Assembly (NCBI RefSeq): GCF_003151135.1
Contig: NZ_QEQK01000005.1
Location: forward strand, 1-64,000
From: Abyssibacter profundi
GTDB taxonomy: Bacteria > Pseudomonadota > Gammaproteobacteria > Nevskiales > OUC007
Direction: 5' to 3'
Length of the DNA: 64,000 nt
Below are positions 22,304 through 28,324 of this stretch, piece after piece. The notes under the pieces are model-generated. The model was not told the DNA's origin and made no database searches. It saw only the letters and a program-made list of their open reading frames with translations. The number at the start of each line of letters is the position of its first letter. The stretch's first letter is position 1. A program made the translations under genes and the position numbers.

Positions 22304-23707
22304 ATGACACGCGCGACGCATGGTTTGGTTGAACGCGTGTTGGAGGTCGCAGCGTCGGATCCCACAAGGCCGGCGCTGCTGTCGCTGGATCATGAGTGCT
22401 CGTATGGGGCGCTGGCCGAGCGGGTGGGTGCCTGCTGTCTGGCGCTGCGACATCGCGGGGTCCAGCCCGGGACGACCGTGGCGTTCCAGTGTGCCGACGA
22501 GTTTCCGCACCTGACGTTGAGTCTGGCCCTGATGGCGCTTGGGTGTCGACAGCTGGCGGTGGCGTCGCATGAGTCGGGACAGGCCGGGCAGTCGCTCGCC
22601 CTTCAAGCAGGTGCTTCGCTGTTCCTGCAGGACGGGGATGCCGTTGAACTGGCTGCTCACAACCCTGCCAGCCCCGCCTCGGGCGCACCGGCAAACGCCG
22701 GATGGCTTTATCTCAGCACATCCGGCACGACAGGACGGCCCAAGGTCGTGATGATGCAGGAGCAGGACCTGGTGGCCCAGGCACCTCGACACATCCTCGG
22801 GCCTCAGGAACGCTTTGCCTGCATGGCGTCGGTCGAGCACAACTTTGCCAAACGGCATCGGTTGTACTGCCTGGCGATGGGAGCGACCACGGTGTTCCTG
22901 CCGACGGATCGCAAACGGTTCGTGGACGCCTGTCTCTTACTTGGCGTGACCACACTGCATGTGTCCGTATTTCAGGCGCAGGAGCTATTGGGGCTCGATC
23001 AGGTGGCGCGGCTGCGCGGTATCCGGCTCAAGCTGGGCGGGTCTCATGCTTCACACGCCTTGCGCCAGGCATTGATCGAGCAGGTCACGCCCGCGCTCTA
23101 CGCCGGATACGGGACCACAGAAACCGGCGCCATCGGTTTCGCCGAGCCCGACGAGCATGCATCCGCGTCGGTGGGCCGGCCGCTGCCGGGGCTGCAGGTG
23201 CAGATTGTGGATGCGCTGCGACAGCCCTTGCCGCAGGGCGAACGCGGTGAAGTTGCGGTCTGCGGTCAAGGCCTATTCCGGGGCTATCTGAACGAGCCGG
23301 AACTGACCCGACAGCAGTGCGAGGCCGGCTGGTTTTACACGGGCGATATCGGCGAACTCGATGCGAAGGGGCGTTTGACACTGAGCGGCCGCGCCGATGA
23401 CATGTTTGTGTTCAACAGCATGAACATCTACCCGCAGGAGCTGGAAGCCGTGATTCGCGAGTTCCCGGGGGTGCAGGCTGCAGCGGTCTTTCCACGGCCT
23501 TCGGCAACGCATGGCGGGATTCCCGTTGCCCTTGTGGAGAGCGCAGACCCCGCACTGGACCTGAAAGCCTTGCGTCGGTTTGTTCAAGAGCGGGTTGGAT
23601 TGCGATGCCCACGCCAGTTTTTGCGCGTTCATGACATTCCCCGGAACTCGGCCGGCAAGATTCGCCGAGAACGGTTATCGGTCATAGCTGGCGGCGGATC
23701 GCCATGA
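22304..23707 (+). CDS. AMP-forming acyl/amino-acyl ligase (ANL superfamily)
   Basis: A 467-residue enzyme of the acyl-CoA synthetase/NRPS adenylation superfamily. It activates a carboxylate as its adenylate. Seen motifs are YLSTSGTTGRPKV (A3 phosphate loop, near residue 140), YAGYGTTETG (A5), GWFYTGDIGELD (A7), GRADDMFVFNSMNIYPQELE (A8) and NSAGKIRR with catalytic Lys452 (A10). The ATG at 22304 has GGGAGG about 8 bp upstream. Its stop overlaps the start of the carrier-protein fusion by 4 bp (ATGA), so its natural acceptor is probably that carrier domain rather than free CoA. At 467 residues it is short for the family. The substrate cannot be read from sequence. Confidence 0.87.
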   Translation: MTRATHGLVERVLEVAASDPTRPALLSLDHECSYGALAERVGACCLALRHRGVQPGTTVAFQCADEFPHLTLSLALMALGCRQLAVASHESGQAGQSLALQAGASLFLQDGDAVELAAHNPASPASGAPANAGWLYLSTSGTTGRPKVVMMQEQDLVAQAPRHILGPQERFACMASVEHNFAKRHRLYCLAMGATTVFLPTDRKRFVDACLLLGVTTLHVSVFQAQELLGLDQVARLRGIRLKLGGSHASHALRQALIEQVTPALYAGYGTTETGAIGFAEPDEHASASVGRPLPGLQVQIVDALRQPLPQGERGEVAVCGQGLFRGYLNEPELTRQQCEAGWFYTGDIGELDAKGRLTLSGRADDMFVFNSMNIYPQELEAVIREFPGVQAAAVFPRPSATHGGIPVALVESADPALDLKALRRFVQERVGLRCPRQFLRVHDIPRNSAGKIRRERLSVIAGGGSP

Positions 23708-24921
23708 AGGTGCTGGCAATCCGGCAGACCATTGCCGAGGCGCTGGAATTCGCCAACGCACTCGAGCATGTCACCGCGCAGGATCTCGCGGCATTCGTGG
23801 CCGGCAGCCAGGCGTTGACCATCGAGCAGATCAGACTCGACAGTCTGGCCCGTATGGAACTGCTCATTGCGCTGGAGACGGAGCATGGGGTCGCGGTCAC
23901 GCCCGCGGCGTTCGAGCGTTTCGAGAGTCTGGCCGCGCTGGCGGATGCCATCGCCACGGGAGCATTCGCAGCCGCGGCGTCGGTCTCGCCGGATGACCCG
24001 GCGCCATGGCGACAGGATCGGCGTCAGCCTCGCATCGCTCGACTCTATGAGCGACTGACCCGACACCCGCGGACGGCCAATCAGCTCAATCAGCTACATA
24101 TTGCGCTGGAGAATCGGATCACCCCTGCGGAGCGCGATGGACTCTGGGCCGCGATGCGGTCTGCGGGCGCGGAGGCAGCGACCACTTGGCTGGAAGGCTT
24201 GTGCGAGCAAGCGGGTATTGCAGGCCAGGCGGCGACTGCTCCCGATTTCAGCCGGCAGTCACTTGGATGGGGGCTACGGCTTTATCAGGGGGGCGGAGAC
24301 CCGGCCGACAAGGTGCTGATACTCGCATTCTCGACGCGGGGCGAGCGGCTGATGATGCCGATGCCGAGCCTGCTGCAACAGCTCGACAGCCAGCGCTTTG
24401 ACCTGTTGCTGGTGCCGGACCGGAGCCGTTCGAGCTATGAGCGGGGATTGCCGCCGCTGGCCGAGTCCACGCAAACCCTGATTGAGTACTTGGCGCGTCT
24501 GCCGGTGTTGAAGGCTTATGGGTCGGTGCGATCAATGGGGTCTAGCGGAGGTGGATACGCCGCCCTGCTGGCGGCCGCGACCTTGGGCTTGGAGATGGGG
24601 GTTAGTTTCGCTGGCCGGTTTCCGGCCGGGCGTCACTGGCTCCGTTTGCAGCGTGTCTGGGCACTACGCCAGGCGCGCAGCCGATCCGGCGGAGCCCCGT
24701 TGCTCGCGGTATTCGGCGGCCCCAAGACGCGCGATCGCAAGTTTGCTCAGGCTTTCGTACGGGGTGTCGGTGCGCGGTCGCTTGCAATCGACTACGTGGA
24801 GGGCGAGGCAGGCCATCTCATCCTGGCCGAGGTGCTGGAGCGCGGTCATCTCGAAACGCTGATCGGGCAGACAATCTGCGCTGAGGCGAGCGCCCACTGG
24901 CCGGAGGCACTGCGGTTATAG
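23704..24921 (+). CDS. acyl-carrier domain fused to alpha/beta-hydrolase-like domain
   Basis: A 405-residue two-part protein. Residues 1-90 look like an acyl/peptidyl carrier domain: the helix-II motif LDSLARMELLIALE places a phosphopantetheine Ser at residue 47. Residues about 195-400 look like an alpha/beta-hydrolase: a KVLILAFSTRG strand, the nucleophile elbow GSSGGG (Ser281), then Asp363 and His371 (EGEAGH) as possible triad partners. The carrier domain is probably loaded by the ligase whose gene overlaps it by 4 bp, and the hydrolase probably releases or transfers the tethered product. The middle 100 residues are Arg-rich and helical and not recognised. I know no named family with this exact architecture. 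Confidence 0.6.
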   Translation: MKVLAIRQTIAEALEFANALEHVTAQDLAAFVAGSQALTIEQIRLDSLARMELLIALETEHGVAVTPAAFERFESLAALADAIATGAFAAAASVSPDDPAPWRQDRRQPRIARLYERLTRHPRTANQLNQLHIALENRITPAERDGLWAAMRSAGAEAATTWLEGLCEQAGIAGQAATAPDFSRQSLGWGLRLYQGGGDPADKVLILAFSTRGERLMMPMPSLLQQLDSQRFDLLLVPDRSRSSYERGLPPLAESTQTLIEYLARLPVLKAYGSVRSMGSSGGGYAALLAAATLGLEMGVSFAGRFPAGRHWLRLQRVWALRQARSRSGGAPLLAVFGGPKTRDRKFAQAFVRGVGARSLAIDYVEGEAGHLILAEVLERGHLETLIGQTICAEASAHWPEALRL

Positions 24922-24924
24922 CCG

Positions 24925-25680
24925 TCAGCGCTTGCGGATCCGCACGGCCAGATGAAGCGGGATGTCCTGCACGGGGCCGAAGAAATCCGAGTCTAGTGCC
25001 ATGTGCTCCTGGCGCACACCAAGTTCTCGAATCTCCGGCAGGCAAGAGAAGCCCGCCTGACCGAGGGCCTCGAAATAGTGGCTCAAGGTCTTGTGGACCA
25101 TTTGCACCGGGAGCCGGGTGCCATCGCGGCGCCAAATTTCACCCTGAAACTGGCGATCGGTCCCGGAGAAGTAGCCGGCATCCAGCGTGTCGAAATAAAA
25201 CGGGGCCGCGTGCTGCGTGCGAATAAAGCCCAGTGCTGGGTGGGGGACCGAAAATACAAACGCGCCACCGTCGCGGAGTACGCGGTAGACCTCGGCAAAT
25301 GAGGCTTGCATCTGCTCCGCCGTCAGGTAGTTGTACAAGAACACCGCAGTGACCAGGTCGAAGCCGGCACTGGGCACGCCGGTTAGCGCCACGGCATTGC
25401 CTTGTCGATACCGGATGCCTTGCCCGAGGCTGGCTTCCTGCTGCCGCGCGATGTCGACCATTTCGGCCGAGAGTTCGATGCCTAGCATGGAGCCAGCGCC
25501 ACGTCGCATCAGTTCCCGGCTGCAGTAGCCTTCGCCGCAGCCCAGGTCCAGTACGTCCAGTGCCGTGACGTCTCCACAAAGCTCGAAGACTGCAGGGCGC
25601 CCGGTGAAATCCGACAAGCTGGATGGCTTGTTTCGCGCCCACTTGGCGGCGTTGTCATCGTACAGCGACCTAGTGTCCAT
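24925..25680 (-). CDS. class I SAM-dependent methyltransferase
   Basis: A 251-residue Rossmann-fold methyltransferase. Motif I is VLDLGCGEGYCSRELMRRG (around residues 43-61), the acidic post-I residue is in GIELSAEM, motif II/III are FDLVTAVFLYNYL and RVLRDGGAFVFSVPHPAL. The PHPAL segment resembles ubiquinone/menaquinone-type and small-molecule O- or C-methyltransferases. Its start overlaps the end of the diiron-oxidase gene by 11 bp, so both are translated from one message. It converges on the carrier/hydrolase gene with only 3 bp between the stops. The acceptor is unknown; context suggests the product of the adjacent ligase/carrier system. Confidence 0.88.
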   Translation of the reverse strand: MDTRSLYDDNAAKWARNKPSSLSDFTGRPAVFELCGDVTALDVLDLGCGEGYCSRELMRRGAGSMLGIELSAEMVDIARQQEASLGQGIRYRQGNAVALTGVPSAGFDLVTAVFLYNYLTAEQMQASFAEVYRVLRDGGAFVFSVPHPALGFIRTQHAAPFYFDTLDAGYFSGTDRQFQGEIWRRDGTRLPVQMVHKTLSHYFEALGQAGFSCLPEIRELGVRQEHMALDSDFFGPVQDIPLHLAVRIRKR

Positions 25681-26434
25681 GCTGGGTATCCTCGCCGATT
25701 TGCGCCCGCGCCAGCATCACGTCCCAGAACGCGACGCGCAGATTCAATGAAGAGAACACCCCAAAGCGGACGGCCTCCCGGACGTTGGGGGTGTCACTCA
25801 GTTCCTCGGTGATGGCGATCAGGTCCTGGGCGTGCTCGTCATCGCAGTCGATGTGCAGGGAAAAGAAAACATGGTGCTCTTCCGGAATCGTCGTGTGTTC
25901 TCTGATCCCCCGCAGAATGTAGCGATAAATGTCAGAAACGAGGAGTTCCGTGGCCAGGCCGATCGCGCCAAGTCCTACGCCTAACTGACTGGACTGACAC
26001 TTTTGCAGAAACAGGTCGCGCCACACGCTGACGGTCGTCGTTGGCACGAACTGCGCCTCATCAGCAGCACTGACGCCAGTGGCGCGCCGGAATCGATCGA
26101 ACAACACGGCGTGTGGCGTGTGCTGGCCGTCGACACCCGTCAACCCCTGCTCTTCCTGGAGGTTCTCCGTCAGGACATCGCGATGCCTTCGTTGTGGCAA
26201 CGAATTGATCACGCCCTGCAAATAGCTGGTGAAGCCGGCGCTGTAGACGGCGTACTGCTGGGCAAAATCACGAACGGCAAAGGCCATGGACGGAAAATCG
26301 CCCGCCGCGAAGCGCTCTAGATACTCATGCCGCACCGCGACATGGGCCTTGGCCTCGTGGCGCAACGCAGCCACAAATTCGTTGGGAGAACCCCGATAAA
26401 GCAATTCGCGTGATGGAACCGATGGGCCGGCCAT
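25670..26434 (-). CDS. heme-oxygenase-like diiron oxidase (HDO) family enzyme
   Basis: A 254-residue all-helical protein of the TenA/PqqC/heme-oxygenase-like fold with a full set of candidate metal ligands. Glu94/95 (NLQEEQG), His105 or His108 (GQHTPH), Glu163 (LATELL) and the C-terminal HxxxDxxH motif His194-Asp198-His201 (HIDCDDEH) correspond to the pattern in CADD, SznF and UndA-type enzymes. Such enzymes use O2 and iron for N-oxygenation, decarboxylation or C-C cleavage of acyl or amino-acid substrates. The start ATG 26434 has AGGGGAG upstream. It is coupled to the methyltransferase gene by an 11-bp overlap. The reaction cannot be deduced. Confidence 0.8.
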   Translation of the reverse strand: MAGPSVPSRELLYRGSPNEFVAALRHEAKAHVAVRHEYLERFAAGDFPSMAFAVRDFAQQYAVYSAGFTSYLQGVINSLPQRRHRDVLTENLQEEQGLTGVDGQHTPHAVLFDRFRRATGVSAADEAQFVPTTTVSVWRDLFLQKCQSSQLGVGLGAIGLATELLVSDIYRYILRGIREHTTIPEEHHVFFSLHIDCDDEHAQDLIAITEELSDTPNVREAVRFGVFSSLNLRVAFWDVMLARAQIGEDTQHGH

Positions 26435-26542
26435 CCTGAGCTCCCCTGACGCAAGCCGAGCGGACAGTCTACAAGTTGGAGGCAGGCGAAATCGGCTGCA
26501 GTGCGTCCAGTCTCCGGTCAGGCCGCGACCGGGCGAAGCAGA

Positions 26543-27889
26543 TCAGTCCGCGCTTGCCTGGCGCTCATCACAAAACCGGTACGGGTTCGGGGCGGGCACG
26601 ACTTCTCCCGTTGCCTGTCCGCGCAGGTCGCCGTACGCCTGCCGGCGGCGCATCTGCTGCGCCATATAGTCGCAATAACCCGGGTCCTTGCTGCGTGTGG
26701 GTGACCCAAAACCAAGATGGGCCAGCGTTTCGTCCACCACGCCCTTGCTAGGTTCGGTGGTCAGGTGCCCCCACGCCAGTTGCAGCCAGGGTGCGACGGG
26801 ATTGATCGGTAGTGCGCTGATAGGAAGAAAGTCGATTTCGGGTTCCGGGGCGACATAATCATCCGGGTCGTAATCCACGAATGCGGCTTCTTCCAGCGCG
26901 CGGCGCAGGTCCCAGTTGGTGATGCGCAGGTCACCCGCCACGACCATTGCGGGTGCATCGTCTCCAGCGCCCAGGTCGATTCCGCCGCGGTGGCCTACCT
27001 GGCGGCGGGCTTCGAGCAGCACTTTAGAGGCCAGGCCCGTGGCATGTGGTGTTGAAATACTCGTGCCGCCGATGGGCACCAATTCCGATTCGCAGTCGTT
27101 ACAGAACGGCAGGGTGTCGGTGAATCCTGCGATGAAGTCCGGTAGCAGGGCGCCTGTGGACGACTGACCGTTGGCGGCTTCGTCGATGCCAGAGACGCCG
27201 ATGGTCCACCAGCTGCCGGGACCACCCTGGTATTCCACCGGCACCAGGAAGTTGCCCGCAGCCTGGAACATCAGCTTGCCCAGCTCGACCACCGCCCGGT
27301 AGGCCCCCGTCTCGGTAATGGGCAGCCCCAGGTTGTAGCTGAAGGCCATCATATCGACTGCCGGGTGTTCCAGCGCGTAGGTCATTTCATGCGGCTCGGG
27401 CTCTGCGCAGGATTCCACGAATAGAATCACCGCTTCCGGATTGGCTTTGAGCACCGAGGCGCTGACGCCCGTGCCGTGTGGGCTCTTGTCCACGTCCGGT
27501 TGCAGCGGAACAAACGGTTCTTCACAAAAGGACACAGCCACCACATTGGTGCCTGTGAACCAGTACGGCGTGCCGTGTTCGACGCGGTCCCAGAACGCCG
27601 CATCAGCGACCTTGTCGGCGTCGATGTCACCGCTGCGGGTCAGGGTGACATGGTTGTCGGACGCGACGCCGAGTTCCATCAGGACCGCCGGGGTCACACT
27701 CGATGGCGCGACACCCGGGTAGATGCTGCTGTCGGCGTAGAAAAAGTCGTGGTAGAGGTTGATGGATGTGTCCACCACGGTGACAACCACGCGGGCGGGC
27801 TCGCCCGAGTCAGCGTCTTGTTCGCTGCAGGCAGACAGGATGAGGCCACAGGCAATGGCCAGCAGCGTGCGGAACGTTGAGTCGATCAC
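26543..27889 (-). CDS. subtilisin-like (S8) protease lipoprotein
   Basis: A 448-residue secreted serine protease. The GTG at 27889, with GGGG just upstream, gives a clean lipoprotein signal (TLLAIACGLILSA-C); an ATG at 27955 would add a leaderless 22 residues. The catalytic triad is recognisable: Asp in VVVTVVDTSIN, His in KSPHGTGVSASV, the oxyanion Asn in QAAGNFL and Ser in IGGTSISTPHATG. The C-terminal 110 residues are not catalytic and carry a DPDDYVAPEPEIDFLP segment. It is 108 bp upstream of the HDO gene on the same strand and could share its transcript, although no functional link is obvious. Confidence 0.85.
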   Translation of the reverse strand: MIDSTFRTLLAIACGLILSACSEQDADSGEPARVVVTVVDTSINLYHDFFYADSSIYPGVAPSSVTPAVLMELGVASDNHVTLTRSGDIDADKVADAAFWDRVEHGTPYWFTGTNVVAVSFCEEPFVPLQPDVDKSPHGTGVSASVLKANPEAVILFVESCAEPEPHEMTYALEHPAVDMMAFSYNLGLPITETGAYRAVVELGKLMFQAAGNFLVPVEYQGGPGSWWTIGVSGIDEAANGQSSTGALLPDFIAGFTDTLPFCNDCESELVPIGGTSISTPHATGLASKVLLEARRQVGHRGGIDLGAGDDAPAMVVAGDLRITNWDLRRALEEAAFVDYDPDDYVAPEPEIDFLPISALPINPVAPWLQLAWGHLTTEPSKGVVDETLAHLGFGSPTRSKDPGYCDYMAQQMRRRQAYGDLRGQATGEVVPAPNPYRFCDERQASAD

Positions 27890-28324
27890 GGTGAACCCCA
27901 AAAAAGAATCGTGCGTCGTCGGGCGTTGACCCAGTAGCAGGAAGTGATCCGGCAAAGGGCGGCCGCAGACAGGTTGCGGTGTCTATGTTTTTTATTGGAT
28001 GCGCCTGCCCCGCTGGGGATCGTGGCCGACGCCTGGTCATTATGGCTGCCGAATGGCGGGGCGTCGACGGTTGGTGACGAGCCTTCATAGTGCGCATGCG
28101 GATTATTCGGCTCGCGGAAGGCCACTTTGCAGCGCTGCGCATGAGCAGCGAACCGTGTGCCCCGCGCGCATCACCCGAATCTGTCGGCATTCGGGTTACA
28201 ACGCGCATCCATTGGGCCAGGCGATGAATGCCTTCAGGCTTGTTCCGCAAAACACGGCTGCCTGAGTTCGCAGTCGGGCCCAGCAATATCCAGCGCCGTG
28301 TCGCGTGTCAGGGCTTCCTGAATG
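27890..28324. other. 435-bp intergenic region, no gene supported
   Basis: Between the end of the S9 peptidase gene and the start of the S8 protease gene, both on the minus strand, no frame with coding character or known RNA gene was seen. A T-run (GTTTTTTATT) lies near 27987-27996. It is the longest gap in the 22-36 kb segment and could hold a promoter for the protease/HDO/methyltransferase genes. Confidence 0.4.

Follow-up and report, generated by a model that had tools for sequence, protein, structure and literature searches.

What do the four enzymes of a compact gene cassette in Abyssibacter profundi make, and how do they share the work? The cassette lies in the window analysed here (the whole stretch of 64,000 nucleotides, positions 1 to 64,000 of the forward strand of contig NZ_QEQK01000005.1, assembly GCF_003151135.1) and consists of two gene pairs that converge tail to tail: an adenylating ligase of the ANL superfamily and a carrier/alpha-beta-hydrolase fusion on the forward strand, and a heme-oxygenase-like dimetal oxidase (HDO) and a class I S-adenosylmethionine-dependent methyltransferase (MT) on the reverse strand. 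Based on genome comparisons, searches with hidden Markov models (HMMs) and structure models, we favour, with moderate confidence, a co-inherited cassette that makes a modified small acid and hands it on. Nested within this unit, HDO and MT form a core that is spread far beyond the cassette, either as linked genes or at unlinked loci.

The convergent four-gene cassette is present in all three other family genomes available for comparison (4/4 with that of A. profundi) and in a Planctomycetota metagenome-assembled genome (MAG), OFTM165, where MT is split over two contigs, one carrying the ANL ligase, the fusion and MT residues 89-249 and the other HDO and MT residues 1-88. An original prediction, made from the sequence alone, had grouped the four families into one pathway, and their co-occurrence elsewhere is borne out by these five genomes. 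Recurrence in each of these family genomes and in a second phylum shows that the four genes did not come together by chance; many of the relative loci are on draft MAG contigs, any one of which may have been assigned to the wrong phylum. The junction between the pairs varies among relatives, the stops overlapping by 11-21 bp (the convergent genes overlap by 21 bp and 11 bp in two of the family relatives) or standing 30 or 972 bp apart. In genome G002, a BD-FAE hydrolase gene (L020:1926-2828) is inserted between the pairs. Identity to the A. profundi proteins is 67-70% for HDO and MT within the genus and 51-66% in the other two genomes, and lower (32-52%) for the ANL ligase and the fusion. The HDOs found in Gammaproteobacteria beyond the family were all weak and CADD-like, and at the three of their loci that were inspected the neighbouring genes were unrelated. 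The only MT in a sample of 398 Pseudomonadota genomes was that of A. profundi itself. Plasmid searches returned no match for the fusion or the ANL ligase, and the HDO-MT pair only in Indioceanicola; viral contigs gave only generic methyltransferases.

HDO-MT at first seemed limited to a few genomes, but a profile search with MT corrected this view, and MT proved to be a near-obligate partner of HDO across three bacterial phyla. In the Planctomycetota tested, all MT-bearing genomes (11/11) carry HDO (E <= 1e-97), at a locus unlinked to MT in 4/11 of them, and none of the 65 MT-negative genomes has an HDO match better than 2.7e-26 (Fisher p 1.7e-13). For the Myxococcota, leaving out the seed genome, MT occurs in 6/8 HDO genomes (p 3.4e-9), and in four of the genomes with both, the genes are on separate contigs. 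Relatedness is ignored in these counts, but unlinked co-occurrence cannot stem from neighbourhood alone.

The company kept by this core changes from lineage to lineage, the partner types outside the cassette being a 2-oxoglutarate oxygenase (with or without a cupin) or an ATP-grasp protein together with a dideoxy-aminosugar transaminase. In Myxococcota and Planctomycetota, a TauD-family oxygenase usually follows MT, with HDO adjoining or at another locus, and a cupin adjoins some of the Myxococcota relatives. The second type is found in Myxococcota locus L033 (HDO 54% and MT 59% identical to those of A. profundi) and on a plasmid of Indioceanicola profundi (L088; 39% and 53%), whose HDO-MT neighbours are an ATP-grasp-like protein (a weak CPSase_L_D2 match in one of the two), a possible iron/2-oxoglutarate (Fe/2OG) enzyme (no Pfam match) and a WecE-type transaminase above the family cut-off. 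The gene order at L088:7055-17634 is flgK, flgL, glycosyltransferase, HDO, MT, ATP-grasp-like, Fe/2OG-like and WecE-type transaminase, an arrangement that resembles a locus for flagellar glycosylation with an HDO in it. In the HDO tree as in the MT tree, the sequences group chiefly according to the kind of neighbourhood, and the members of the cupin/TauD type stand apart; the inner branches of both trees are mostly weakly supported. Two further observations concern HDOs of these phyla. All three Myxococcota/Planctomycetota examples scanned (L136:10149-11285, L140:10488-11666 and L081:9191-10432) carry an N-terminal cyclic-nucleotide-binding domain (PF00027 + PF14518), and such fusions may be ligand-regulated diiron oxidases. 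Three tandem AIM24-like genes adjoin the Planctomycetota HDO at L140:11764-13874 and L174:4512-6539 and are conserved there with MT nearby or not.

The HDO of A. profundi (254 aa; 25670-26434, reverse strand) matches Haem_oxygenas_2 (PF14518) at 4.7e-23, and its AlphaFold model, based on a 14-sequence alignment, has the seven-helix heme-oxygenase fold at a mean predicted local distance difference test (pLDDT) score of 92.4; the nearest structures are HrmI (Z 26.8), CtCADD (26.2), FlcD (24.0) and BesC (23.9). Fourteen HDOs, at identities down to 34%, share E94, E95, H108, E163, H194, D198 and H201 without exception, and alignment to CtCADD selects E95, H108, E163, H194, D198 and H201 (CtCADD counterparts E81, H88, E142, H174, D178 and H181). 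The predicted ligands, placed in this way by alignment, make up a complete three-histidine/three-carboxylate (3H/3C) set, which is that of most HDOs (PMC13108848). The metal site proposed in the original prediction therefore stands as a complete predicted ligand set in a confident model of the HDO fold, and of its ligand candidates the alternative H105 is not conserved among the 14 homologues. Myxococcota relatives carry a Glu-rich loop that separates their first Glu ligand from the first His ligand; the A. profundi HDO lacks it, which tentatively suggests a 3H/3C rather than a three-histidine/four-carboxylate enzyme. Neither HMMs nor the model reveal a fused cupin domain, the 254-aa protein being the HDO domain only, and the score against the BesC equivalog is 23.3 bits (cut-off 500). 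Its partner MT (251 aa; 24925-25680, reverse strand) matches Methyltransf_25 at 1.7e-21.

The 467-aa ANL ligase (22304-23707, forward strand) matches AMP-binding (1.2e-42) and AMP-binding_C (8e-8), both above cut-off, and has conserved motifs: its catalytic Lys452 and the stretch HNFAKRHRLYC over motif A4 are invariant in five orthologues. So is Asn180, which an alignment to LgrA places at the GrsA Asp235 position, presumably an Asp in those adenylation (A) domains of non-ribosomal peptide synthetases (NRPSs) that activate alpha-amino acids. The ligase lacks this Asp and, because Asn180 replaces it, a plain alpha-amino acid would not be the obvious acid to be loaded. In the fusion (23704-24921, forward strand), PP-binding (PF00550) matches residues 43-83 at 9.6e-7 (29.4 bits, cut-off 20.8) within a carrier domain of about residues 37-85, whose phosphopantetheine-site Ser47 is invariant in five fusions. 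The hydrolase half has no Pfam match and is recognised from the structure model (whole-model mean pLDDT 79), in which about residues 180-400 form a C-terminal alpha/beta-hydrolase domain with Z 15.6 to the thioesterase DcsB (root-mean-square deviation, rmsd, 2.9 over 186) and to GrgF. The GxSxG nucleophile Ser281 and the candidate residues Asp344 and His371 are invariant in five fusion orthologues, and the modelled domain is of the thioesterase/acyltransferase type with a candidate triad. HMMs and structure models together uphold all four of the predicted family assignments.

In the mechanism that we favour, HDO (as an O2-using dimetal enzyme of the 3H/3C class) and MT would act on a shared substrate, converting a small acid, most likely derived from an amino acid, into an oxidised and methylated acid. 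Because HDO and MT co-occur elsewhere without an ANL/carrier pair nearby, they are probably independent of the carrier, and would act on the free compound rather than on a carrier-bound one. In a later step, the ANL ligase would adenylate the product (or a derivative) and attach it to the carrier's phosphopantetheine arm, from which the hydrolase domain would take the acyl group via Ser281, for hydrolysis or for transfer to an acceptor. The ANL/carrier-hydrolase pair is most likely this lineage's add-on module for activation and hand-over, and by analogy the ATP-grasp-like protein of relatives would fit the same activation logic. The substrates of characterised HDOs are mostly amino or fatty acids (PMC13108848), and a characterised HDO beside ATP-grasp ligases has a peptide substrate (PMC13185094).

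Several points weigh against this scheme. The two pairs are convergent and so are not one operon, and the lower conservation of the ANL ligase and the fusion may mean that their acceptor varies or that they serve another step. Two Myxococcota genomes (G577 and G618) have MT with no detectable HDO and two have HDO without MT; moreover, the counts of 11/11 and 6/8 treat related genomes as independent. Finally, the scheme names no substrate for the cassette.

Among the alternatives, the one that survives best is a tentative reading as surface-glycan decoration, in which the modified acid would end up on a sugar of the lipopolysaccharide core or the flagellum, at a hydroxyl or amino group, and the hydrolase domain (or the ATP-grasp-like protein in relatives) would be the transferring or activating enzyme. 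It draws on the position of the cassette between glnE and glycosyltransferase genes in genomes G001 and G003 and beside glycosyltransferases in G002, on the ATP-grasp-like protein and WecE-type transaminase that accompany the pair at L033 and L088, and on the L088 pair, which comes immediately after flgK, flgL and a glycosyltransferase. However, the A. profundi cassette lies outside the glnE-glycosyltransferase locus, loci of this type collect transferred genes of any kind, and many Planctomycetota and Myxococcota HDO-MT loci have no recognisable glycan genes. No WecE-type transaminase is present in G000, G001 or G002 (the genome of A. profundi included), and a dideoxy-aminosugar link in A. 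profundi was rejected on this ground. The broader form of the idea, by which HDO-MT would be an undescribed system of at least three phyla that puts an unusual acyl or aminoacyl group on cell-surface glycans via interchangeable modules (ANL with carrier-hydrolase, or ATP-grasp), is likewise possible but improbable; if true, HDO chemistry would be used on the bacterial surface for the first time. The same neighbourhoods bear on the description of the cassette as a minimal tailoring pathway, which holds in so far as the adjacent genes include no condensation or ketosynthase gene, and may be too narrow, given that some relatives sit amid glycosyltransferase and aminosugar genes.

The linear order of the original prediction, with loading by the ANL ligase first, then oxidation by HDO and methylation by MT of the carrier-bound acid, and finally its release by the hydrolase, is in our view rather unlikely. 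Adenylation followed by a carrier-thioesterase is the textbook order, and five genomes have kept all four genes together; nevertheless, the HDO and MT of Myxococcota, Planctomycetota and Indioceanicola recur, often at separate loci, with no ANL/carrier pair close by, and the L033 genome has no close ANL orthologue, which argues against the pathway as drawn. Far less probable is that the HDO is a p-aminobenzoate synthase of the self-sacrificing CADD type and its neighbours are unrelated. The best NCBIfam match of the HDO is the CADD family, though at 52 bits (cut-off 200), and CtCADD is among the nearest structures, CtCADD and NePabS sharing with it the fold (Z 26.2, rmsd 1.8) and all six metal ligands. 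However, the sacrificed Tyr27 and Lys152 of CADD align with Leu39 and Ile173, and the HDO is tied to MT and adjoins the MT and ligase genes; with the sacrificed residues missing, the p-aminobenzoate synthase reading was rejected. A chance neighbourhood of four unrelated genes, for which nothing was seen to speak, is next to impossible in view of the repetition of the cassette in another phylum and the strong unlinked HDO-MT co-occurrence.

Comparison with known systems places the favoured cassette among relatives of several kinds. HrmI and BelK, HDO lysine N-oxygenases, are the nearest structures and share the 3H/3C class, whereas the A. profundi HDO is only 18% identical. Streptozotocin biosynthesis likewise pairs a methyltransferase with an HDO, in that SznE is the methyltransferase partner of the HDO SznF; some Myxococcota relatives resemble SznF in their cupin neighbour and longer Glu-rich loop, while the A. 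profundi enzyme has neither cupin domain nor loop. The clusters of mangotoxin MboA and other HDO/ATP-grasp clusters (PMC13185094) resemble the L033 and L088 relatives with their ATP-grasp-like protein; A. profundi instead uses the ANL ligase and carrier-hydrolase, and no MboB-like redox partner was seen there. The pair shares with DltA/DltC, a standalone adenylation followed by carrier loading outside NRPSs, the logic of these two steps, and differs in the fusion of the carrier to an alpha/beta-hydrolase, the coupling to HDO and MT and the Asn at the NRPS Asp235 position. Other HDO loci came to light in the searches: a 398-aa open reading frame of gammaproteobacterium G301 (L022:6982-8178), HDO-like and then apparently cupin-like, among mobile-element-like neighbours; a Pseudomonas tremae cluster (L034:4680-10690) with a hydrolase, ThiF-like, MFS, FeeM-like acyltransferase, class III aminotransferase and HDO, which is a different HDO pathway; and a Burkholderia stagnalis plasmid cluster (L089:138-17228) with an HDO (28% identity), a separate diiron oxygenase, acyl carrier proteins, ketosynthases and a C45 peptidase, which resembles hydrazone-forming clusters.

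At the gene level, the predicted reading frames, strands and junctions were all reproduced: the ANL and fusion genes overlap by 4 bp, MT and HDO by 11 bp, and 3 bp (24922-24924, no strand) separate the two convergent stop codons. The genes flanking the cassette, identified by HMM scan, are DUF4197, UbiA and a subtilase, with no condensation or ketosynthase domain among them, in agreement with the predicted absence of an NRPS or polyketide synthase condensation gene. The originally claimed range, 22304-27889, does hold the four genes, but its end also covers most of a gene for a subtilase-like lipoprotein (26543-27955, reverse strand; weak PF00082 match), upstream of HDO on the same strand. This gene was considered as a fifth member of the cassette and rejected, being absent beside the cassette in relatives.

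Each of the four enzymes belongs to a known superfamily. In the literature searched, which included few subscription papers, we found neither the four-gene combination, nor the near-obligate HDO-MT partnership, nor cyclic-nucleotide-binding HDO fusions, nor an HDO with polysaccharide genes. A 2026 review puts the superfamily at more than 10,000 members, of which about a dozen had a validated function at the time; the oxidative reactions of these were for the most part without precedent among diiron catalysts (PMC13108848). The HDO subfamily of A. profundi, with its near-obligate MT partner and three alternative partner modules, offers testable hints to the substrate, and the compact ANL/carrier-hydrolase version is small enough for full reconstitution, in which intact-protein mass spectrometry of the carrier could show the product directly.

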